NCBI GenBank assembly: GCA_017518225.1
Contig: JAFWVV010000031.1
Coordinates: 1 to 36,411 of the forward strand
Direction of reading: 5' to 3'
DNA length: 36,411 bases
Origin: Oscillospiraceae bacterium
Lineage (GTDB): Bacteria > Bacillota > Clostridia > Oscillospirales > Oscillospiraceae
The notes beneath the pieces are model-generated. The model did no database searches. It had not been told where the DNA came from and saw nothing but the letters and a program-made list of their open reading frames with translations. The position numbers were made by a program, and so were the translations under genes. Shown here in pieces: positions 2,937 to 35,451 of this stretch. Position 1 is the stretch's first letter. Each line of letters starts with the position of its first letter.

Positions 2937-4388
2937 CTACACCCGGCGCCACTTCGCCCCGTGGGGGATATCGGTCACTTCGATGCCGGCGGCCTTCAGC
3001 TCGTCGCGGATGCGGTCGGCCTCGGCAAAGTTTTTGGCCTTCTTCGCCTCCTGCCGGGCGAGGATCTGCGCCTCGATCGCGGCGTCTGTCTCTCCGGTCT
3101 CGGAGATGACGGTGAAGCTTCCGGCGGCGACGGCCTGCTTTTTCAGCTCCTCGCGCTTCCGGTCGGCCTTGGCGATCAGCTCAAGGCTCAGCACACGGTC
3201 AAAGTCTGCGAAAATCTGCAGCTTGGTGTAGTCGTTCGTCGGATACTTCAGCACGTCGTAGAGCGCCGTGACGGCGAGAGAGGTGTTGAGATCGTTGTCC
3301 AGCGCGGCGGTGAAACGCTTTTTCAGCGCGGCGAAGGCGGCCTCGTCCAGCGTGTCCGCCTCCGGCTTGAGCGCGGCGATGCGGGCAATCAGCTTGTTGT
3401 AGGCAAGCTGGGCGTTGTCCATGTTCTCCCAGTCGAACACGAGGTTTTTGCGGTAGTGGCTCTGCAGGCAGAAATAGCGGTAGGCGCGCGGATCGTAGCC
3501 CTTTTCCTCCAGCAGCGAGACCGTCAGAAACTCGCCCTTGGACTTGGACATCTTGCCGCCCTTGCTGTTGAGGTGCAGCACGTGCATCCAGTAGTTGCAC
3601 CACTTGTGGCCGAGATAGGCCTCGCTCTGGGCGATCTCATTGGTGTGGTGCGGAAACGCGTTGTCGATGCCGCCGCAGTGGATATCCAGATCCTCACCCA
3701 GGTGCTTCATCGAGATGCCGGAGCACTCGATATGCCAGCCCGGATAACCGACGCCCCAGGGGGAATCCCATTTCAGCGCCTGATCTTCGAACTTCGATTT
3801 GGTAAACCACAGCACGAAGTCGTTTTTGTTGCGCTTGTTGAGGTCTTCCTCGACGCCCTCGCGCACGCCGACGTCCAGATCCTCGGCGTTAAAGTCGTTG
3901 AAAACGTAGTATTTTTCCAGCTTGGAGGTGTCGAAATAGACGTTGCCGCCGGCAAAATAGGCGTAGCCGGTGTCCATCAGGCGGGAGATGATTTGGATAT
4001 ACTCGTCAATGCAGGCGGTGGCGGGCTCGATCACGTCCGGCTTGCGGATGCCGAGCTTGTCGCAGTCGGCAAAGAAAGCGTCGGTGTAGAATTTGGCGAT
4101 CTCCATGACGCTCTTGTTTTCGCGCTTGGCGCCCTTGAGCATCTTATCCTCGCCTTCGTCGGCGTCAGAGCTGAGGTGTCCGACGTCGGTGATATTCATG
4201 ACGCGCTTCAAGTTATAGCCCAGATAGCGCAGATAGCGGTCGAGCGTGTCTTCCATGATGTAAGTGCGCAGGTTGCCGATGTGGGCGAAGTGATAGACCG
4301 TCGGGCCGCAGGTGTACATCTTGACGATATCGGGTTGATTGGGGACAAAATCCTCGCGGGTACGGGTGAGAGAGTTATACAGCTTCAT
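2937..4388 (-). CDS. cysS: Cysteinyl-tRNA synthetase
   Basis: A 483-residue class I aminoacyl-tRNA synthetase that charges tRNA-Cys in the cytoplasm. The HIGH-type motif is HIGN (36-39) and the KMSKS motif is at 279-283. Likely zinc ligands are Cys27, Cys222, His247 and Glu251, in the typical TCGPTVY, WHIECS and FPHHTNE contexts. The length is normal for the family and the C-terminal anticodon-binding helical region is complete. AAGGAG lies just upstream of the ATG. It is the last gene of the minus-strand run, 11 bp after pgsA, and ends near a hairpin terminator. Confidence 0.97.
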   Translation of the reverse strand: MKLYNSLTRTREDFVPNQPDIVKMYTCGPTVYHFAHIGNLRTYIMEDTLDRYLRYLGYNLKRVMNITDVGHLSSDADEGEDKMLKGAKRENKSVMEIAKFYTDAFFADCDKLGIRKPDVIEPATACIDEYIQIISRLMDTGYAYFAGGNVYFDTSKLEKYYVFNDFNAEDLDVGVREGVEEDLNKRNKNDFVLWFTKSKFEDQALKWDSPWGVGYPGWHIECSGISMKHLGEDLDIHCGGIDNAFPHHTNEIAQSEAYLGHKWCNYWMHVLHLNSKGGKMSKSKGEFLTVSLLEEKGYDPRAYRYFCLQSHYRKNLVFDWENMDNAQLAYNKLIARIAALKPEADTLDEAAFAALKKRFTAALDNDLNTSLAVTALYDVLKYPTNDYTKLQIFADFDRVLSLELIAKADRKREELKKQAVAAGSFTVISETGETDAAIEAQILARQEAKKAKNFAEADRIRDELKAAGIEVTDIPHGAKWRRV

Positions 4389-4399
4389 GGAAAAACTCC

Positions 4400-4942
4400 T
4401 TATTTTGCGTCTTTGAAAACGTCGCGATTATAATAAAAGTATTCCGCGCCGGAATAGACGGTAGTCAATAGAATGATGGCGGTGCTGATATGGGCAATGA
4501 AATCCGGGACGGAATCCCCGATTCCGGGCGCGGGGAAGAAGAGCATCAGGCACAGGCAGATCATCGTCGCGGCGGTTTTGATCTTGCCGGATTTTCCGGC
4601 AGCGATCACGCGCCGCTGCTCTACGGCGATAAGCCGCAGCCCGGACACGCCGAATTCCCGCAGCAGAACGACCGCCAGCGCCCAGCCGGGCATGCGCCCA
4701 ATCTCGACGAAATAACACATCGCGGCCATGACCAGTACCTTGTCAGCCAGCGGATCCATGAATTTGCCGAAATTGCTGATCTGATTGTAGCGTCGGGCAA
4801 TATAGCCGTCCAGAAAATCTGACAGGCTCGCCAGAACAAAGACGGCAAGCGCCGCATAGCGATGTCCGGTATAGGCCAGCAGCAGGAAGAAGGGAATCAG
4901 GACGATCCGAAAGATAGTGATCTTATTGGCTAAGGTGTTCAT
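4400..4942 (-). CDS. pgsA: CDP-diacylglycerol--glycerol-3-phosphate 3-phosphatidyltransferase
   Basis: A 180-residue integral membrane enzyme that makes phosphatidylglycerophosphate, the first committed step to phosphatidylglycerol and cardiolipin. The CDP-alcohol phosphotransferase signature is complete: Asp42, Asp45-Gly46, Ala49-Arg50, then Asp63 and Asp67 (SDFLDGYIARR and FMDPLADK). Several hydrophobic helices flank it. It begins 9 bp after the rimO stop and is followed closely by cysS, so it is probably part of the recA-recX-rimO-pgsA-cysS transcript. A rimO-pgsA pairing is common in Firmicutes. Confidence 0.95.
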   Translation of the reverse strand: MNTLANKITIFRIVLIPFFLLLAYTGHRYAALAVFVLASLSDFLDGYIARRYNQISNFGKFMDPLADKVLVMAAMCYFVEIGRMPGWALAVVLLREFGVSGLRLIAVEQRRVIAAGKSGKIKTAATMICLCLMLFFPAPGIGDSVPDFIAHISTAIILLTTVYSGAEYFYYNRDVFKDAK

Positions 4943-4951
4943 AAGCAGCCC

Positions 4952-6268
4952 TCAATCCGTATGTCCGTACAGCAGACCATCCTCGACGGCGTCGATGATG
5001 ACCTCGGCAAATTCGCCCTCGCGGCTGTCGCCGGAGAAAAGCACCAGCCCGTCGATATCCGGGGAGTCGGCATAGCTGCGCCCGGTGTGCAGGCCGCTGT
5101 CGGCGTCCTCGCCCTCGTGCAGCACACGCAGGGGCTTGCCGACGAAGCTCTGGAGGAAGTCATCCATGATCGGCGCTTGCAGCTGCATGATCAGCTCCGC
5201 GCGCCGCTGTGCCGTCTCGGCGTCCGGATGCTCCATCGCGGCGGCGGGAGTGCCCTCCTCGGGGGAGAAGGGGAAGACGCCGACGCGCTCGATCCTGGCC
5301 TCTTTCAGAAAGGCGCAGAGCTCCTCAAAGGCGGCCTCGTCCTCGCCGGGCAGACCGGCGATCAAACTGGTGCGAAGCACCAGTCCGGGGATACGCCGAC
5401 GGAGATCCCGGAACAGGGCGCGGATCTCCGCGCCGGTGCCGCGGCGGTTCATGCGCTTCAAAATGGCGTCGTTGATGTGTTGGATGGGAATGTCCAGATA
5501 CTTGACGATCTTGTCATTTTGCGCGATTTCGTCGATCAGCTCATCGTCGAACTGGTCGGGATAGAGATAGTGCAGCCGGATCCATTCGACGCCCTCGATC
5601 TGCGCCAGCTCCCGGCACAGCCGCGCCAGAGAACGCCTGCCGTAGAGATCGCTGCCGTAGCGGGTGATGTCCTGGGCGATGACGATGAGCTCTTTCACGC
5701 CGCGTGCGGCGAGCTCCCTTGCCTCCTCCAGAATATGCTCGACGGGCCGCGAACGATAACGTCCGCGGATCGCGGGGATCGCACAAAAGGCGCAGCAGTT
5801 GTTGCAGCCCTCGGCAATGCGCAGATAGGCCCAGCCGGCGCCGGTGGAGACTACGCGGGGGATTTCGTCCACGGGAGCGTTCTTGTCGCCAAAGCGCGAG
5901 AGCGCATTGCCCGCGCAGACGCTGTCGGCGGCGGCGACGATGTCGCCAAAAGAGCCGACGCCGAGCACCGCGTCGATCTCCGGCAGTTCCTGCAGGATGC
6001 TGTCCTGATAGCGCTCGGTCAGACAGCCGGTGACGATCAGGCCGCCGAGCCTGCCCTCTTTTTTCAATTCTGCCAGAGACAAAATCGTGTCAATGGCTTC
6101 GGTCTTGGCTGCGTCAATAAAGCCGCAGGTGTTGACGACGGCAAAATCGGCGCCGTCTGCCTCCGGCACGAGCGTGTATCCAGCCTCATCGAGCAGGAAC
6201 AGCATCTGTTCACTGTTGACCAGATTCTTGGCACAGCCGAGAGAGATCATAGCAAAGCGTTTTTTCAT
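4952..6268 (-). CDS. rimO: Ribosomal protein S12 methylthiotransferase RimO
   Basis: A 438-residue radical SAM enzyme that adds a methylthio group to a conserved Asp of ribosomal protein S12. The N-terminal UPF0004 domain holds cluster-binding cysteines in SLGCAKNLVNSE, VVNTCGF and VTGCLTERY. The radical SAM cluster motif is GCNNCCAFC (CX3CX2C), followed by IPAIRGRYRSRP. The C-terminal ~65 residues fit a TRAM domain. S12-type RimO is favoured over MiaB by the start (ISLGCAKNLVNSE) and the pgsA neighbour. The first four bases overlap the end of recX (ATGA), implying translational coupling. Confidence 0.95.
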   Translation of the reverse strand: MKKRFAMISLGCAKNLVNSEQMLFLLDEAGYTLVPEADGADFAVVNTCGFIDAAKTEAIDTILSLAELKKEGRLGGLIVTGCLTERYQDSILQELPEIDAVLGVGSFGDIVAAADSVCAGNALSRFGDKNAPVDEIPRVVSTGAGWAYLRIAEGCNNCCAFCAIPAIRGRYRSRPVEHILEEARELAARGVKELIVIAQDITRYGSDLYGRRSLARLCRELAQIEGVEWIRLHYLYPDQFDDELIDEIAQNDKIVKYLDIPIQHINDAILKRMNRRGTGAEIRALFRDLRRRIPGLVLRTSLIAGLPGEDEAAFEELCAFLKEARIERVGVFPFSPEEGTPAAAMEHPDAETAQRRAELIMQLQAPIMDDFLQSFVGKPLRVLHEGEDADSGLHTGRSYADSPDIDGLVLFSGDSREGEFAEVIIDAVEDGLLYGHTD

Positions 6269-6897
6269 CCGTTTTCCTCGTCCGGCGCCTCCGCCCGGAA
6301 ACGCGCCAGCGCCGCGCGGATTTCGTCCCAGCCGTAGCCGCGTCGAAAGAGCGCTGCGCTGACCTTGCGCACCTGATCCCGATCCTCAGGGTTATGGAGG
6401 CGGGCGGCGATAAAGGCGTCCATCTTTTTGGTGTTGTCGGGGCGCTGGGCGATAGCGTCGTCCCAGAGCGCGCGGGAAAGGCCGCGGCGGCAGAGCTCGG
6501 AGCGGATGCGCCCCGCGCCGTAGCCCTTGGCAGCATAGTGCCGCGCAACGGCGGCAGCGTAGGCTTCGTCGTCCAGCAGACGGTTATCCTCCAGCCAGCG
6601 GATACAGCGCGCAACAACGCGCTCGTCCTCGCCCTTTTGCAGAAGCTTTTTCTCCAGCTCTCGGGCGGACAGCATACGTCGTGAGAGCGCATCGAGCGCG
6701 CGCGCCTTGGTCATCGACAGCGCGCAGGCGCTTCTAACGGTCTCCAGCGTCGCCTCGTCCAGCGGCTGTCCACGATAAAGCCGCAGCTCAGCCAGATCGC
6801 TGATGCTACCCTTGAGCGTCTCGCCGTCAGAAAGCGCAATCTCAATGCGCTCTGACGAGAGCTGGCGAATGGCCTCAATGGTGACGGGAGCGGCCAT
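6265..6897 (-). CDS. recX: Regulatory protein RecX
   Basis: A 210-residue, mostly helical RecX-family protein, a modulator of RecA filaments. The core contains ALDALSRRMLSARELEKKL, IRWLEDNRLLDDEAYA and GAGRIRSELCRRG, the three-helix repeats typical of RecX. Its ATG shares one base with the recA stop (TGATG) and its stop overlaps rimO by 4 bp, so synthesis is likely coupled to recA. A recA-recX tandem is common and supports the call. Confidence 0.92.
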   Translation of the reverse strand: MAAPVTIEAIRQLSSERIEIALSDGETLKGSISDLAELRLYRGQPLDEATLETVRSACALSMTKARALDALSRRMLSARELEKKLLQKGEDERVVARCIRWLEDNRLLDDEAYAAAVARHYAAKGYGAGRIRSELCRRGLSRALWDDAIAQRPDNTKKMDAFIAARLHNPEDRDQVRKVSAALFRRGYGWDEIRAALARFRAEAPDEENG

Positions 6898-8000
6898 CAG
6901 CCCTCGTCAAAGTCGGCGGCGCTGACGTCCACGGCGCGGCCGGAGACCTGCGCGGCGCGCTTGGCCTGCGGGCTCATCAGCTCGGTGGAGCGGGCGCGAA
7001 TCTGCTGCTCAATGTCGTTGCAGACCTCTTCGTTAGAGGCGAGATACTCCTTCAAAGCCTCCTTGCCCTGGATGCGCTGTCCGTTGCAGGTAAACCAGGC
7101 GCCGCCCTTTTCGATGATGTCGAGCTTGACGGCAAGGTCAATGATCTCGCTGATGCGCGAAATACCCTCGCCGTACATGATATCGAACTCCGCCTCACGG
7201 AAGGGAGGCGCGACCTTGTTTTTGACAACCTTGGCGCGGGTGCGGTTGCCAATCATCTCGTTGTTGGCCTTCAGGGTCTCGATGCGGCGTACGTCAATGC
7301 GCACGGAGGCGTAGTACTTGAGCGCCAGACCGCCGGGCGTCGTCTCGGGGTTGCCGTACATGACGCCGATTTTCTGACGCAGCTGGTTAATAAAGATAAC
7401 GGTGCAGTTGTTTTTTGAGATGGCGCCGGCAAGACGGCGCATGGCCTGGCTCATCAGACGCGCCAGCATGCCCACCACCGTGTCGCCGATCTCGCCGTCC
7501 AGCTCGGCGCGTGGGATCAGCGCAGCAACCGAGTCTACCACCAGCACGTCGATCGCGCCGGAGCGAACCAGGGATTCTGCGATATCCAGCGCCTGCTCGC
7601 CGGTGTCCGGCTGGGAAATCAGCAGACTGTCAATGTCTACGCCGAGGGCGCGGGCGTAGGCCGGCTCCAGCGCGTGCTCAACGTCGATATAGGCGGCGGT
7701 GCCGCCGCTTTTCTGCGCAGAGGCCACCACGTGCAGCGCCAGCGTCGTCTTACCGGAGGCCTCGGGGCCGTAAATTTCGACGATGCGCCCGCGGGGAACG
7801 CCGCCGATGCCCAGCGCCAGATCCAGCGACAGAGAGCCGGTGGACAGCGCCTCCACGTTGACGGAAATATCATCGCCAAGGCGCATAATCGTGCCCTTGC
7901 CATAGTCCTTTTCAATCTTGGCGATCGCCGTTTCCAGCGCCTTTTTCTTGTCACTGTCAGCAGGAGCGACGATTGCAGGAATCTTCTTCTTTTCAGCCAT
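6897..8000 (-). CDS. recA: Recombinase RecA
   Basis: A 367-residue DNA recombinase for strand exchange and SOS co-protease activity. Walker A is GPEASGKTT; other family motifs are [21 protein letters not shown] and INQLRQKIG. An in-frame ATG exists at 8045, but the ATG at 8000 is chosen because AAAGGAGAG lies just upstream and the product then begins MAEKKK like other RecAs. The C-terminal tail ([11 protein letters not shown]) is acidic. It leads a tight group with recX and rimO. No Gram-positive LexA box (CGAAC-N4-GTTCG type) is seen in the 74-bp gap upstream; direct repeats of another kind occupy that space. Confidence 0.98.
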
Positions 8001-8074
8001 GTCTTTCTCTCCTTTATCTTTCGGCAGTGCAGGTTTACACTGCAAATTTACATAATTTTGTTTACATAATCATA
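8001..8074 (-). promoter_or_regulatory. recA upstream region with repeated TTATGTAAA elements
   Basis: The 74-bp gap between prmC and recA carries, on the minus strand, two direct copies of ATTATGTAAA 14 bp apart (complements of 8061-8070 and 8047-8056) and a partial third, TGTAAAC (8033-8039). A 6-bp dyad GCAGTG/CACTGC lies beside the third. No good -35/-10 pair stands out, so recA may be read through from prmC or use an unusual promoter. Confidence 0.4.
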
Positions 8075-8929
8075 TCACATGATGCCGGCCACAACGCGAT
8101 CCACACCAAGCGTGTCACGTGTGCAGGCGGTGGCACGAAAACCGGCGGACAGCAGCATTTCGCTGACGGTCTCGGCCTGACCCTCGCCGACCTCAAAGAG
8201 CAGGATACCGCGCGGCGGCAAGAGGGATTTCCAGTGCTTGATAATCGCTTTGTAAAATTTCAGCCCGTCCTCACCGCCGTCGAGCGCCCAGATCGGCTCG
8301 TAGTCGCGCACGGAAGCATCCAGCTCCAGAATTTCGCTGCTGGCAATGTAGGGAGGATTGGCAACGATCATGTCGAACTGACCGATGCTCATGGGGGGAG
8401 AGGCGGTGGCGTCCGCCTGCAGGCAGTAGGAGCGCCCGCTCAAGCGATTTTGCGCGAGATTTTTCCGGCAGACCTCCAGCGCGCTGGCGCTGATATCCAC
8501 ACAGACGAGCCGTGTGGCAGGCAGCTCATGCCCGATGGCACAGGCGATACAGCCGCTGCCGCAGCAAAGATCGAGCACGCGCGCGTCCATTTTGCGGCCG
8601 GTCAGCAGTTTGATGGCGGCGTCCACCAGCACCTCGGTGTCCATGCGCGGAATCAGAACGTCCGGCGTGACGATCATGGGCAGTCCGTGAAATTCCCAGG
8701 AGCCGGTGATATAGGCGACCGGCTCTCCGGCCAGACGTCGGACGGTAAGCGCCGCGGTGTCTCGCTCCACCTGATCGGTGGTGTACAGGCGCATATCGCG
8801 CAGCAGCTCCTGCGTGCTTTTTCCAGCGGCGCAGGCGAGCAGGATGCGCGCCTCCAGCTGATAGGCTTCGACGCCGGCGTCGCGCAGGGCATTGCGCGTG
8901 GCAATCAGAATGTCGTTGTAGGTTTTCAC
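8075..8929 (-). CDS. prmC: Peptide chain release factor N5-glutamine methyltransferase PrmC
   Basis: A 284-residue SAM-dependent methyltransferase that modifies the GGQ glutamine of release factors. It shows the N-terminal helical domain, the SAM site VLDLCCGSGCIA and the catalytic VANPPYI motif. I choose the GTG at 8929: AAAGGAG sits 8 bp before it, whereas a TTG two codons earlier (8935) would be only 2 bp from the same site. It follows the DUF1385 gene by 18 bp. prmC usually sits with prfA; here prfA is not in the window. Confidence 0.93.
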   Translation of the reverse strand: MKTYNDILIATRNALRDAGVEAYQLEARILLACAAGKSTQELLRDMRLYTTDQVERDTAALTVRRLAGEPVAYITGSWEFHGLPMIVTPDVLIPRMDTEVLVDAAIKLLTGRKMDARVLDLCCGSGCIACAIGHELPATRLVCVDISASALEVCRKNLAQNRLSGRSYCLQADATASPPMSIGQFDMIVANPPYIASSEILELDASVRDYEPIWALDGGEDGLKFYKAIIKHWKSLLPPRGILLFEVGEGQAETVSEMLLSAGFRATACTRDTLGVDRVVAGIM

Positions 8930-28970: not shown

Positions 28971-29609
28971 TTATCGGATCGCGCTGGTAAAGGCCACGGC
29001 GCGACCGAGGATACGCACGCGATCCAGCTCCTCGCCTACAAAAACAAACGGCGCATAGGCATCGTTGGCAGGGGAGAGGATCAGCCGCCGCTGCGCCCGG
29101 TCATAAATGATCTTTTTCAAGGTGGCCTCGTCGTCGATCAGCACGGCGGCAATCTGTCCGTTGTCTACCTCGTCCTGCTGCCAAATGTAGACGATATCTC
29201 CGTCGTAAATCCGGGCTTGAATCATGCTGTCGCCCCGGCAGCGCAGGGCAAAATCCGCATCAATGCCAGCCGGCAGGCTGACACGCGACTCCCAGTTTTC
29301 CATCGCGAGGATGGGCTCGCCGCAGGCGATTGCGCCAATCAGCGGCACGGTACGCGACGAGGCCGCAAAGGACGGCTCGCGCAGGGATTGATCGGTAAAT
29401 TCCCCGCGTTCATACTGTCCGAGAATATACAGAGGCGAAACGCCAAAAGCCCGCGCAAGCTTCTCGATTTTGTCCTGACGCATGTTGGCGATGCTTCCGG
29501 TTTCCCATTTGCGGACGGTGCTTTTGCCGACGCCGACCAGCTTTCCCAACTGCTCAAGCGTCATATTCCGTGCGCAGCGGAGGATGTGGATGCGATCTCC
29601 GATCGTCAT
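28971..29609 (-). CDS. Phage-type repressor: XRE HTH plus S24 (LexA-like) autocleavage domain
   Basis: A 212-residue CI/LexA-type repressor. The N-terminal XRE helix-turn-helix (about 5-65) contains MTLEQLGKLVGVGKSTVRKW. The C-terminal S24 domain has a candidate cleavage site at Cys96-Gly97 (AIACGEP), catalytic Ser128 (GDSM) and Lys165 (ATLKK). The Ser-Lys spacing of 37 equals that of LexA. It should therefore self-cleave with activated RecA and release lytic genes. It faces the plus-strand phage-like genes across a promoter region with repeated operator-like sites, and its own promoter overlaps one such site. Confidence 0.9.
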   Translation of the reverse strand: MTIGDRIHILRCARNMTLEQLGKLVGVGKSTVRKWETGSIANMRQDKIEKLARAFGVSPLYILGQYERGEFTDQSLREPSFAASSRTVPLIGAIACGEPILAMENWESRVSLPAGIDADFALRCRGDSMIQARIYDGDIVYIWQQDEVDNGQIAAVLIDDEATLKKIIYDRAQRRLILSPANDAYAPFVFVGEELDRVRILGRAVAFTSAIR

Positions 29610-30637: not shown

Positions 30638-31438
30638 TTACCGATAGATTTCCATGAGATCGCCGTCGTTCCAGCCCGTTTCCATCGAAGCTGTGATCTT
30701 CTCATAGCTCGGATAGCGTTTGAGGAAGGAAAACAGCGCTCTGGCCTGGTCTTCGATTTCGGCCAGTCTTTGCGCGTCTTGTTCTTCATCCTTACGCATG
30801 GCAAGCATGCAGATCAGTTTGTCGATGCAAAGGCATTCGACTTTTTCAATATGATCCATGCGCTCTTTGCCGCTTTTGACGGCAGCGGCGATCTCGTACT
30901 GCCAAAAGTGCAAGGCGGGGATCTGGTTGACGTAGTATTCGGCCATCGCCTGCTCGCCCATGCTGTGGTAGGTTTCCGCCAGAATGCGCAGCACGTCGAT
31001 CCTCAACTCGTCGTCCCTGGTGCAGGCGAGCACACGCTCGCCCGTTTCCACGATCTCGGCGCTGCGGGAGCCGTCGGCGTTTTGCTCCTGCATATCCTCT
31101 AAAATACAGGTCAGCAGGAGATCGTTGTTCGGGTACTTTTCCAGCGCCTTGCGTAGAAAAGCTTCAGATTTAGCCGGATCTCCGCCGCTTCCCCGTCCGC
31201 ATTCAGCGACCAGCGCCTCAACGGCAGCGTTGACCTGGCTCTGGTCAAAATCCAGCAAATGATCCAGCGAGGTGCCAAAAAAGATAGCCAGCTTTGGCAG
31301 CAGGTCGATGTCGGGGCTCGACGCGCCGGTCTCCCACTTGCTGACGGCCTGGGAGGAGATGTGCAGGTATTCCGCCAGCGCCTCCTGGGTAACTTTTTTC
31401 TCTTTTCTCAAAAGCTTGATTTTTGCTCCGATGTTCAT
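30638..31438 (-). CDS. XRE-family regulator with TPR-like C-terminal region
   Basis: A 266-residue protein. The N-terminal helix-turn-helix (about 4-60) has VTQEALAEYLHISSQAVSKW and SSPDIDLLPKLAIFF. The remaining ~200 residues are helical and TPR-like (KSEAFLRKALEKYPNNDLLL, AETYHSMGEQAMAEYYVNQI), with a Cys-rich stretch VECLCIDKLICML. This layout resembles common Clostridia regulators of unknown target. AAAGGAA precedes the ATG. It points the same way as the BlaI/M56 operon, 170 bp downstream of its terminator. Confidence 0.85.
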   Translation of the reverse strand: MNIGAKIKLLRKEKKVTQEALAEYLHISSQAVSKWETGASSPDIDLLPKLAIFFGTSLDHLLDFDQSQVNAAVEALVAECGRGSGGDPAKSEAFLRKALEKYPNNDLLLTCILEDMQEQNADGSRSAEIVETGERVLACTRDDELRIDVLRILAETYHSMGEQAMAEYYVNQIPALHFWQYEIAAAVKSGKERMDHIEKVECLCIDKLICMLAMRKDEEQDAQRLAEIEDQARALFSFLKRYPSYEKITASMETGWNDGDLMEIYR

Positions 31439-31574: not shown

Positions 31575-31605
31575 CATCTGCGCAGCGGAGATAGCTGCGC
31601 AGATG
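31575..31605. terminator. Terminator of the BlaI/M56 operon, T tracts on both sides
   Basis: A perfect 12-bp stem (31575-31586 with 31594-31605), loop GGAGATA. On the minus strand it follows the M56 stop and is trailed by CTTTTTCT. Confidence 0.85.
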
Positions 31606-31608
31606 GCC

Positions 31609-34600
31609 TTATTTTTGTTCTTCCATATAGAGCGACATGCGTTTTTGAATATCTGCGGTGACCAGCTCGAGGCTCTTTTGACCGCTGTAATATCGCTCGA
31701 TTTCATCGTAGACCACATCCATGACAGCGTCGTCCCAATACTCCATGCATGTGATTCCCTCGATCAGCGCCAGCAGCTGCGCCGCCTGTTGCTCTGTCAT
31801 GGCGTAAACGGGAATGGTGTCTGTGCCGTAGCCGGAAGCGATGGTGAATTTGGGCTGCCTGAGTCTTGCTCCGTTGGCATCCAACACATACTCGCCCTTG
31901 TCATTTTTTACATATTCCTCGCGCATCGCATCCTCCAGCAGCGCGTCAAAGGCGCGGCGATTGGTTGGAAACGGAGAAGTAAATTCGCCTCTCGCGTGGG
32001 CGAGCTGCCGATTGGCGTCAAGCGTTCCGCGAAGAAAACGCCAAGCCGCCTCCTTGTGGCGACAGCTTGCGGACATGGCGAGGCCCATGGGGATATCAAA
32101 GGCGCTGCCGTTGCCGGATACGCCGGGCAGACCGACATAAATCGGCTGATCGCCCAGCTGAGCCGCGTTGCTGCATACATCGTCAAAGCCATTGAGCGCT
32201 GTATATAGCAGCATCTGTTCGCCGTCAATGATCCGCTCGTGCTCCTTTCCAACATAGTCCGTCCACAACTCAGCCCGGTCGTTGAAGAGATCTGAAAACC
32301 GGATCAAGTCACGAAATTCCTCGCTGTCAAAGCGGCAGATCCCCGTATCCTTGTCCAAAAACTGATCCACCCGCATGCACAGCGAACGGGTTAGCGCGGC
32401 CTTTTTATCAAACCATGGCCCCAGGATCGTGCTGCCCTCCGGCATCTGCTGCCAGAGCGTCATGAAATCCTCCATGCTCCAGCCCTGCCGATCACCTACG
32501 GTCGATTTTGCACCGATGACGGTTTGAATGGAAAAGTAAGGAGCAACGGTGTAGAGCTTTCCCTTCTGCTCCATGGCGGAAAAGAGCGGCGCCATCAGCG
32601 CGTCCCGGCCGCCCAGCTCTGCATCTGCGTCGATGTATGGCCAGAGATCCTCCAAAAGCCCTCTCGCGGCGTAGTCGCGCATGGGAAGACCGTTGGTGCA
32701 GAAGAGGTCCGGGCTCTGTCCAGCTACGATCTCGGCGTTGAGCATGGTGTAGCTCGCTTGGGGCGAGGCGTTGGTGCGAAAGCCGCTGTAATCCTTGACC
32801 TCAATGCGGTAGTCCCGGTCGCTGCGATTGAAGTGCAGCACCAAATCGGCAGTATCTTTATTCAGACCCATGCAGCCCAGCGTCAACACGGTGCGCTCCT
32901 CCCGGGGCGGCAGGTCCGTCTGCCGGATGGTCGCCACGCCGAAGTCCTTTTTCGCTTCATAGGGGACGCCAAAAACACATCGGAGCGTCTGTCCATCCGC
33001 GTCCGGGACGATATCCAGCAGTTTGTTGCCGTCCAGATCGCAGTTGAGCCAGGTGACTACGGTGCCCTGCTCACCGGTGCCCTTGACGCCGTAAAGCATC
33101 GTGCCGGTATTCACCAGCAGATCCCAGCCAAAGGCGCCGGGATAAACCGTGAGACCAAGCTGACCGAAGGTGCTGGCAATGAGCTGCAGGCTCCTGTTTT
33201 CCGGATCAAAGGCGTGAACCTCCAGGCCGCTGCCGCTGAGAAGCACCAATGCCACGCGCCCGTCGCCCAGCCGCAGCAGCTGCCAGCATTGCTGGGCGGG
33301 CTGTATCGTCCAGTCCTCCCCATTCGCCATGGAAAAGACCCGGAGTGCGCCAAGATCGTCGATCTGATAGATGTTGCCATCGTCGTCTGTCTGAGGCGCG
33401 ATCCAGCTTGAGGTTTCGGGGAGGGCGCGGCAATGGAGCAGCTCGCCGTTTGCGTCCAGCTGCAGGGCGAAGTTCTCGCTGTGCCACTGCCATGAGGGCA
33501 TGGTGCTGCCGTCGCTCAATAAGATCCCGTCGTCGACGACGGTCTCATAGCAGACGAATCCGAGAGCGATCACGGAGCCCTCGGGTCCGGGAAAAAGCCG
33601 GGTGACAGTAAGGTCAAGAAGCTCCGCGTCTTCAGGCAGCTCGTAAGGAAGCGGAAAGGGGATGGCGAACTCCTGCTGATCGCCGCCATTCAGATCAGAG
33701 GAATAAAGGCGGCAGATTGTTCGTCCGCTTGTCGCATCTTCCTCCTCCGTGGCGGCATAGAGCCGGTCCCCGGAAAGGCAAGCGCTGTACACGCTTTTCC
33801 CGGGAAGCTGCAAGGGCTGATATTCAGATTCGTAGAAGGGGCCGGTCTGTACCGGGGCTTCCTCTTTCTTTGCAAAGGCGCATCCGGTCGCCAGCAGCGA
33901 GATGAGCATGGCCAGCGCCAGCGCCCAGGCAGCGGTGCGCGGCGCATTGGCAACAAGTCGGACGCGCTCGCGGAGGCAGCCTCCCCGGTCGGCCATCGAG
34001 AGAACGGGACGGAGGCGCAGCGCGCGCCCGGAACAGCTGAGCTGGATCAATGTGCGGCCATAGGCCAGGCGCTGCGCTTCTCCCAGCCGGGTGATCGCGC
34101 CTTCGTCGCAGGCCAGCTCCGCATCCCGCCTGGACAACAGCGCAGCCAGCCAGACCAGCGGATTGTACCAGTGCAGAGCCAGAGCAAGCGCGCGAAGCCC
34201 CGACCAGAGCAGATCGCCGTGACGCAGATGGGTTTGCTCGTGAGCCAGGGCGTGCGAAAGCTGCTCCGGATTTGCGCTAAGCGCGGTGGGCAGATAGATC
34301 GCCGGGCGGAACAAACCGAGCAGACAGGGCGCCTCCAGCCAAGAACAGGCATAAATCGGCAGCGTCGTTTTCACAAACGCAAGCCGAATGCGGCTTCGCC
34401 GCAGACGCAGCGAAAAGCGAAGCTGCGCGCCAAGCAGCGCCGCCAGCGTCGCGGCAGCCCCGGCAAAATAGAGCCGGTGGAGAAGCTCCGGCAAGGAAAG
34501 CTGCTGCGCGGGAGCGGCAGCGCGTACTGTCAGCGCGGAGGTCGCCGGGATAGCCGCTGCTGTCGTTGAGGATACAGCCAAGTCCGGCTCAAGCGGCGTT

Positions 34601-34890
34601 TCCTGTGCCGACAGCTTTTGCCTCGGGTGTTCGACAGACAGCAGCGACTCCGGGATTCTGCGGACAGCGTATTCCCGCCGCTGAAGAGGGTCGACGAGGA
34701 TGCGAGGGTCTGCTTCATCCGGCGTCACCTGCTGCGGGATATTCCAGAGGCTGCCCGGGATCAGCAGCCGCAGCAGCAGCGGCAGCCACAAAAGATAGCG
34801 AAGGCGCAGCGAAAGGCGTTTTTTCAGCAGTGCGCGAAGCGTAAACACAACCAGGATCAGCGTGGAGGAGGATATGACCCATGTACTCAT
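31609..34890 (-). CDS. BlaR1-like M56 metallopeptidase fused to propeller-like and solute-binding domains
   Basis: A 1093-residue protein. Residues 1-340 form the BlaR1/MecR1-type membrane protease: transmembrane helices near 5-22 and 33-46, a low-complexity loop, another helix near 138-157, then HEQTH (217-221, HExxH zinc site) and DAELACDE (256-263). A helix at about 319-336 ends in LLATGC, a lipobox with Cys337. Residues ~350-655 look like a beta-propeller (repeated YxxDLNG, DDDGNIY, DLDGNKL segments). Residues ~665-1093 resemble a family-1 extracellular solute-binding protein (TVLTLGCMGLNKDTADLVLH, AEIVAGQSPDLF, KEAAWRFLRG). Classical BlaR1 has a penicillin-binding sensor here instead. 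The start overlaps the BlaI stop (ATGA). I infer that ligand binding outside triggers BlaI cleavage inside. Confidence 0.85.
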   Translation of the reverse strand: MSTWVISSSTLILVVFTLRALLKKRLSLRLRYLLWLPLLLRLLIPGSLWNIPQQVTPDEADPRILVDPLQRREYAVRRIPESLLSVEHPRQKLSAQETPLEPDLAVSSTTAAAIPATSALTVRAAAPAQQLSLPELLHRLYFAGAAATLAALLGAQLRFSLRLRRSRIRLAFVKTTLPIYACSWLEAPCLLGLFRPAIYLPTALSANPEQLSHALAHEQTHLRHGDLLWSGLRALALALHWYNPLVWLAALLSRRDAELACDEGAITRLGEAQRLAYGRTLIQLSCSGRALRLRPVLSMADRGGCLRERVRLVANAPRTAAWALALAMLISLLATGCAFAKKEEAPVQTGPFYESEYQPLQLPGKSVYSACLSGDRLYAATEEEDATSGRTICRLYSSDLNGGDQQEFAIPFPLPYELPEDAELLDLTVTRLFPGPEGSVIALGFVCYETVVDDGILLSDGSTMPSWQWHSENFALQLDANGELLHCRALPETSSWIAPQTDDDGNIYQIDDLGALRVFSMANGEDWTIQPAQQCWQLLRLGDGRVALVLLSGSGLEVHAFDPENRSLQLIASTFGQLGLTVYPGAFGWDLLVNTGTMLYGVKGTGEQGTVVTWLNCDLDGNKLLDIVPDADGQTLRCVFGVPYEAKKDFGVATIRQTDLPPREERTVLTLGCMGLNKDTADLVLHFNRSDRDYRIEVKDYSGFRTNASPQASYTMLNAEIVAGQSPDLFCTNGLPMRDYAARGLLEDLWPYIDADAELGGRDALMAPLFSAMEQKGKLYTVAPYFSIQTVIGAKSTVGDRQGWSMEDFMTLWQQMPEGSTILGPWFDKKAALTRSLCMRVDQFLDKDTGICRFDSEEFRDLIRFSDLFNDRAELWTDYVGKEHERIIDGEQMLLYTALNGFDDVCSNAAQLGDQPIYVGLPGVSGNGSAFDIPMGLAMSASCRHKEAAWRFLRGTLDANRQLAHARGEFTSPFPTNRRAFDALLEDAMREEYVKNDKGEYVLDANGARLRQPKFTIASGYGTDTIPVYAMTEQQAAQLLALIEGITCMEYWDDAVMDVVYDEIERYYSGQKSLELVTADIQKRMSLYMEEQK

Positions 34891-35282
34891 GGCGCATCCT
34901 CCTGCGCCTGGCGGAGAATCTGGTAGAGCTCCTCGATCTCCTGCGGACTCAGCTTGTGCTCTTTCGTCATGGCGTTGATCATCATGCCGATGCTGCCCCG
35001 ATAGACCCGATCCAGAAAGCTCTGGGTCTCCTCGCGCACCGCGTCCTCCCGGCGTATCAAGGGACGGTAGCGCAGCAACTCCCCGTCCTTTTCACAGGCA
35101 ATATAAGTCTTTTCCGTCATCCGGCGCAGCATGGTCAGCGTGGTGCTGCGGCTCCAGCCTACGCTTTTTTGCAGGTATTCGACTGCCTCTCGCCCCGTGC
35201 ATGGGGACAAGGACCACAGACACTCCATCAGACGCCACTCCGCGGCGGTCAACGAGGTCGAGGCTTCGGATTGCTTCGACAT
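34887..35282 (-). CDS. BlaI/MecI-family transcriptional repressor
   Basis: A 131-residue winged-helix repressor. The ATG at 35282 is chosen since GGAGGG lies nine bases upstream and an earlier start would run into the promoter. The DNA-binding domain (about 8-80) contains LTAAEWRLMECLWSL and WSRSTTLTMLRRMTEK. The C-terminal dimer helices include SFLDRVYRGSIGMMINAM, where BlaI proteins are cleaved. It is translationally coupled to the M56 gene, as in bla and mec operons. The perfect dyad over its own promoter fits autorepression. Confidence 0.93.
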   Translation of the reverse strand: MSKQSEASTSLTAAEWRLMECLWSLSPCTGREAVEYLQKSVGWSRSTTLTMLRRMTEKTYIACEKDGELLRYRPLIRREDAVREETQSFLDRVYRGSIGMMINAMTKEHKLSPQEIEELYQILRQAQEDAP

Positions 35283-35300
35283 GGTATTGAGCCCTCCAGT

Positions 35301-35351
35301 CTGTTGACATTGTAAACACATTGTATCACAGTATGTTTACAATGTCAACAG
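35301..35351 (-). promoter_or_regulatory. BlaI operator overlapping the operon promoter
   Basis: Perfect 18-bp inverted arms at 35301-35318 and 35334-35351 contain TGTAAACA and TGTTTACA. On the minus strand TTGACA (complement of 35343-35348), 17 bp and TACAAT (complement of 35320-35325) form a near-consensus promoter wholly inside the dyad, so repressor binding would block it. Confidence 0.85.
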
Positions 35352-35451
35352 ATGCGTTGCCTGTGTTTTTTGGGGGAAAAGCCCGGCGTAGAGATCGGCG
35401 GCGCGCAGTCTCTATACTTTTTCTCGGTCGGAGGAGAAAGGAGGGGAGGCT

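Follow-up and report, generated by a model that had tools for sequence, protein, structure and literature searches.

The stretch of DNA analysed here (the window) is a 36,411-nucleotide contig from an Oscillospiraceae bacterium (GenBank assembly GCA_017518225.1, contig JAFWVV010000031.1, positions 1 to 36,411 of the forward strand). It carries a two-gene operon on the reverse strand, in which a gene for a BlaI/MecI-type repressor is followed by a single gene that fuses an M56 membrane metalloprotease to a β-propeller-like region and a solute-binding domain (Table 1). The stop of the repressor gene overlaps the start of the fusion gene by 4 nt. The circuit is BlaR1-like and its sensor is new. 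From sequence comparison, we consider it moderately probable that the two genes form a self-regulated receptor circuit in which a sensor derived from an importer responds to a solute by triggering cleavage of the BlaI-type repressor.

Table 1 Features of the repressor–protease operon, in window coordinates.
Feature	Position	Strand	Details
M56 protease–propeller–solute-binding fusion gene	31609..34890	-	single open frame, 1093 codons
M56 membrane metalloprotease module	33880..34890	-	residues 1-337; Pfam 5-311, active-site residues, hydrophobic segments
Cys337 codon	33880..33882	-	closes lipobox-like motif LATGC at protease/sensor junction
β-propeller-like region	32899..33840	-	residues about 351-664; profile match to NHL, tricorn and WD40 propellers
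Family-1-type solute-binding domain	31612..32898	-	residues about 665-1093; profile matches
BlaI/MecI-type repressor gene	34887..35321	-	Penicillinase_R match; likely true start 35282
Terminator-like hairpin	31575..31605	-	12 pairs then T run; ends two-gene unit
Double operator	35300..35352	.	inverted repeat, perfect 17-nt arms 35302-35318 and 35334-35350, each with TTKACANNGTMAA
Sigma-70-type promoter TTGACA-17-TACAAT	35320..35348	-	11/12 consensus match; inside operator

The protease module matches Peptidase_M56 in Pfam (E 4e-40, 138.2 bits against a cut-off of 31). A preliminary description of this DNA had reported a BlaR1-type core coupled to a BlaI repressor, and both parts of that claim hold: HEQTH occupies residues 217–221 and DAELACDE residues 256–263, and a gene matching Penicillinase_R (E 4e-31, 108.3 bits against a cut-off of 22.6) lies directly upstream. 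BlaR1 uses H201/E202/H205, D210, E242, D246, Y261 and R294 (PMC9834060). Counterparts occur here at identical spacing (H217/E218/H221, D226, E258, D262 and Y277), and the arginine that corresponds to R294, R309, is one residue nearer. Together with hydrophobic segments near residues 5–21, 28–49, 140–156 and 323–339, which are compatible with the BlaR1 layout, these residues place the module in peptidase family M56, the HExxH...ExxxD metalloproteases with a four-helix membrane module. The repressor belongs to the winged-helix BlaI/MecI family and its nearest solved relative is MecI (E 9e-17). When we aligned BlaI-type repressors, the column of the scissile P1' Phe of MecI (an Asn-Phe cut) held L, M, F, I or V in 80 of 81 rows and a gap in the other; 81 rows were counted because two records share a name. 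The repressor in the window has the motif NAMT, identical to that of L001, aligned as Ala-Met at this position.

The operator layout argues for autoregulation. Palindrome arms matching at 17 of 17 positions did not arise in any of 300 Markov-resampled 130-nt stretches, the best of which reached 13; two more such palindromes in the window, at 2882 and 14738, look like terminators. Sigma-70-type sites numbered 2, against 1.3 expected in shuffles of the promoter region. Because the first ATG of the repressor frame, which runs from 35321, falls within the operator, we place the probable start at 35282. The double site precedes the repressor gene at the same position relative to the promoter in three further operons (L003/G1145, L002/G1146 and G1187); operators and promoter are conserved in all four, and the remaining intergenic DNA has drifted. 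G1187 retains an exact upstream copy and a downstream copy with one change. Predicted self-regulation of the operon is well supported by this conservation.

A wider regulon is not supported by our genome scans. In the 86%-complete genome to which the window belongs, the exact 17-nt operator occurs solely at the operon's own site. Allowing up to three mismatches gave nine rows, four at that site and five elsewhere, the latter all with three mismatches, and a reversed-sequence control gave three. One intergenic three-mismatch site, on contig C47, was rejected as a second operator because it has no dyad. The core TTKACANNGTMAA gave 15 rows, four at the operon and 11 elsewhere (10 places), with none in a reversed control that is not itself a palindrome pattern. 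Seven of these places fall within open reading frames (ORFs), which were called mechanically, so that a site within one could still be regulatory; the other three (two on C5, one on C75) are copies of one intergenic repeat. These copies (L128 and L129 on C5, L138 on C75) each have a GCATTTTGACACCGTCAAAATGC palindrome beside terminator-like sequence. For the direct route from ligand through proteolysis to derepression that had been predicted, the operator at the operon's own promoter is the sole convincing one, and derepression of other targets is unsupported.

Single-sequence searches of the PDB with the window protein returned nothing or weak matches, and we therefore used profiles to characterize the sensor. 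The window protein alone falls short of SBP_bac_1 (20.6 bits against a cut-off of 26). A profile of 24 aligned tails found CbpC at E 1e-36 over the binding domain and Lmo0181 at 5e-17, and a profile built from the four fused proteins only found both at about 1e-7. Among the 24 tails, 22 match SBP_bac_1 (PF01547) and 10 match SBP_bac_8 at E 0.01 or better, and three match Reg_prop; the assignment of the window protein to the SBP_bac_1-type family is by profile only. A profile of the propeller half (23 rows, about the first 300 tail residues) matched NHL, tricorn and WD40 propellers at E 8e-9 to 1e-5; a regular-expression search found few blade-like motifs in the region. These searches bear out the earlier division of the sensor into about 300 residues of propeller-like sequence and a solute-binding module of about 430 residues.

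The tail aligns end to end (by eye) with free-standing propeller and solute-binding proteins that start with a lipoprotein-type signal. Across the order, 394 genomes were scanned and 27 have tail relatives at E 1e-20. Apart from the window's own locus the scan listed 32 places, in frames of 173–910 codons; 29 of them were examined further, and none has an M56 match. A relative on contig C11 of the window's own genome, with 32% identity over residues 535–1093, is followed by two permeases. Downstream DNA of 900 bp or more was available for 44 free-standing loci, and in 18 of these one permease query found a MalF-like permease within 500 bp downstream; the 44 include one gene counted twice (L002 and L169). 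That gene, a free-standing sensor relative with its start cut off (L002:3-1664, equal to L169:1-2037), lies upstream of the fused operon in its genome. The fused protein lacks the marks of a working transporter part, which would be a lipoprotein signal at its N-terminus and a permease gene linked to it: its N-terminus is the M56 module and, as had been noted for the neighbourhood, no ATP-binding cassette (ABC) permease is near, PF00528 matching at 19 places in the genome and at none on the window's contig, C10. In an alignment with 23 free-standing relatives, 64 columns are conserved among the latter; all four fused proteins keep 50 of these columns, and three are changed in all four. In the simplest history, an M56 module would have been fused to the binding lipoprotein of a CUT1-type importer. 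Scans of viral contigs with the tail found no relative, and among matched plasmid (22) and phage (13) records none covers 80% of the protein. One record filed as a bacteriophage from human faeces (MT835833.1:18368-19960) encodes a sensor relative with 26% identity to query residues 536–1092.

The fusion looks rare. Among 102 genomes of the genus, full-length fusions were found in four: the window's own, G1145 and G1146 (60% identity) and G1187 (51%). These orthologues span 1086–1094 codons at 51–60% identity, with L001 and L002 nearly identical. Three further long frames in the genus (945–1065 codons) were inspected and have no M56 part. Among the matches listed from 400 genomes of the family, we found one divergent fusion, L151 (G654), with 28% identity over residues 4–861, which keeps all the protease residues listed for BlaR1. 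Its locus (L151:3-2753, minus strand, G654:C4) comprises BlaI, M56, propeller and solute-binding parts and is broken by the contig end; its junction, LVSCGSNEE, resembles the end of a lipoprotein signal. Among the matches listed from 398 genomes of the phylum, the window protein alone spanned both halves. Candidates were scored per genome, the best two for order, family and phylum and up to seven for the genus, and the fusion counts are lower bounds. A literature search by title or abstract opening, with most subscription journals outside its scope, found no publication on an M56/BlaI-type fusion with a solute-binding sensor. Between L002 and L003, the ratio of non-synonymous to synonymous substitution rates is 0.39 in the protease, 0.28 in the propeller and lowest, 0.14, in the binding domain. 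In the best trees, the window-type fusions and L151 require two changes, and they group together in 0 of 200 bootstrap trees. Approximately unbiased tests do not reject one origin (p 0.122 for the tails; p 0.279 for the M56 domains, on 39 chosen rows of 83), and L151 sits on a long branch. The best trees thus favour two origins without showing them.

To place the sensor among its kind, we gathered M56 relatives using the window's own M56 module as the query, which makes the set a sample of its neighbourhood. A BlaI-like ORF lies directly upstream in 79 of 83 M56 ORFs (L001–L080), and the tails in these loci have a median length of 485 residues, the longest having 1175. We scanned 73 of 76 eligible tails, leaving out the near-duplicates L002, L003 and L069. 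No Pfam family matched at E 0.001 in at least 45 of the 73, and the domains that could be named included Ig-like, LRR, BNR, M23, LprI and DUF6273 domains, two types of binding protein and a single Transpeptidase. As a rule, then, the M56 relatives examined have tails other than penicillin-binding ones, and the novelty therefore lies in the sensor and not in the circuit; the group appears to be a chassis able to take on many different outside domains. The preliminary description had the solute-binding tail standing in place of a penicillin-binding sensor. This is accurate in that the fusion protein has no Transpeptidase match in Pfam up to E 1, but such an absence is nothing special with one Transpeptidase in 73 tails. 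One relative, L008 of Christensenella sp. UBA1214 (4001-8389, plus strand), has a tail with SBP_bac_5, a peptide-binding type, at E 3e-31, after which come several hundred residues without a Pfam name. The window's own genome encodes a second BlaI and M56 pair, with a different tail, on contig C12 (L084, L126).

Building on the architecture, the intact catalytic residues, the repressor pairing, the operator and promoter layout, the sensor kinship and the purifying selection, we infer the remaining steps, from ligand binding and helix coupling to BlaI cleavage and any target beyond the operon. BlaI-type repressors would occupy the two operators on either side of the operon's own promoter. The product of the second gene would be a BlaR1-like M56 protease with its active site towards the cytoplasm, and its outside sensor would be a whole propeller and solute-binding lipoprotein from an ABC (CUT1-type) importer. 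The two-lobed domain would close on a small solute, perhaps an oligosaccharide; closure would free the protease site through the last membrane helix; and the protease would cut BlaI near the Ala-Met bond, derepressing the operon. The evidence suggests, but does not prove, that the tail senses a small molecule, and sugar sensing is a lead, not a result. The nutrient that had been proposed as a possible signal is a guess.

Several observations weigh against this mechanism. CbpC, the nearest solved relative by profile, had a loop-blocked pocket and bound no tested carbohydrate in one study, at odds with an earlier report (PMC9601137). In the tail tree, the branch to the fused proteins is long, at 1.32 changes per column, and would fit a changed function. 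The search with one permease query gave nothing at 26 of the 44 free-standing loci. No second convincing operator was found in the 86%-complete genome, and no output gene was identified. The P1' Phe is called almost invariant in BlaI (PMC9834060, in part), and the window repressor has Met. Finally, the lipobox-like cysteine at the junction could mean that sensor and protease are separated, or that the sensor is lipidated.

The first two of these points, with the Ig-like, LRR and BNR domains among related M56 tails, would also favour a tail that no longer binds a small solute and instead serves as a scaffold meeting protein, cell wall or envelope stress, to which the protease responds. We regard this as unlikely: the binding domain is under the strongest purifying selection of the three regions, and most of the family-conserved columns are kept in every fused protein.

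We give still less credence to a real lipobox, at which the sensor would be lipidated and signal peptidase II would release it, so that the free lipoprotein may feed a permease encoded elsewhere and the signal depends on intact receptor. Among 68 of 82 M56 rows that could be anchored, 54 have a cysteine at one column after the last membrane helix, about 118–120 residues after HExxH (M56 ORFs of L001–L086), and the next commonest column has four. A Gram-positive lipobox pattern fits 47 of the 68, and the residue before the cysteine is Gly or Ala in 48 of 54. The product of such a cut would resemble the free-standing relatives, and in BlaR1 signal peptidase I cuts the same linker, shedding the sensor (PMC9834060, in part). 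A cut by signal peptidase II is attractive but is weakened by Ala instead of Leu at -3 (39 of 54), by the TFTG conserved after the cysteine (38 of 54) and by the scarcity of the motif in the wider phylum, where one of six M56 proteins (L160) has it; 14 of the 68 anchored relatives lack a cysteine at the column. A broader conjecture, which we consider equally doubtful, is that the last helix of the M56 group doubles as a lipoprotein signal, so that one gene might yield both a protease and a transport-ready lipoprotein, occupancy might set the amount of intact receptor, and the M56–BlaI chassis might be a general acceptor that takes in entire surface lipoproteins of sugar-binding, peptide-binding and other kinds for use as sensors.

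A β-lactam receptor like BlaR1, which the M56 and BlaI layout might suggest, is disfavoured and very improbable given the missing Transpeptidase match and a score of 77.6 bits against a cut-off of 400 for the BlaR1 equivalog model NF000326, of which the protein is thus no member. That a sequencing or assembly error joined two genes has a negligible probability and is refuted by the same fusion in L001/L002, L003 and G1187 and by purifying selection over all three regions.

The surroundings of the operon include an S24/LexA-like repressor and an XRE-type regulator (28974-29609 and 30641-31438, both minus strand). At the contig end (35452-36410, plus strand), an ORF of 193 amino acids without a Pfam match is followed by the beginning of a Terminase_3-like large subunit (E 7e-5, narrowly below the cut-off), and a prophage edge beside the operon is probable. 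In L168 and L170, the operon lies downstream of a gene that we take to be obgE-like and before one that we take to be cysS-like; neither neighbour is seen in the window.

If the proposed circuit is right, receptor proteases of the BlaR1 type, whose known role is to sense antibiotics, can employ an entire binding protein of a transporter as their sensor, and an external solute would bring about the destruction of a repressor in one step, with no kinase involved. Since the sensor has many free-standing relatives, its ligand can be looked for in the sensor and in the transporter in parallel. The range of tails on related M56–BlaI pairs suggests that much such signalling in Clostridia is still undescribed. 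With the staphylococcal BlaR1/MecR1 and BlaI/MecI systems, the operon shares the M56 catalytic spacing, an adjacent repressor, a C-terminal outside sensor and promoter operators. It differs in its sensor, a propeller and solute-binding domain instead of a penicillin-binding domain, and in being a two-gene unit without a β-lactamase or PBP2a gene. Compared with the propeller-bearing SBP_bac_1 lipoproteins of CUT1-type importers, the sensor aligns over both propeller and binding domain, but the M56 module replaces their signal peptide and the contig has no permease. The BlaI regulons of Clostridium thermocellum are similar in their very small size, self-regulation and paired dimer sites; in the part of that report drawn on here, the receptors are treated as β-lactam sensors and other sensor domains are not described (PMC8457756). 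BvgS, a Venus-flytrap sensor kinase, is likewise a membrane signalling protein that senses the outside through two-lobed binding domains, but its output is a kinase, whereas the output proposed here would be proteolysis of a repressor (PMC4352136, in part, for BvgS).

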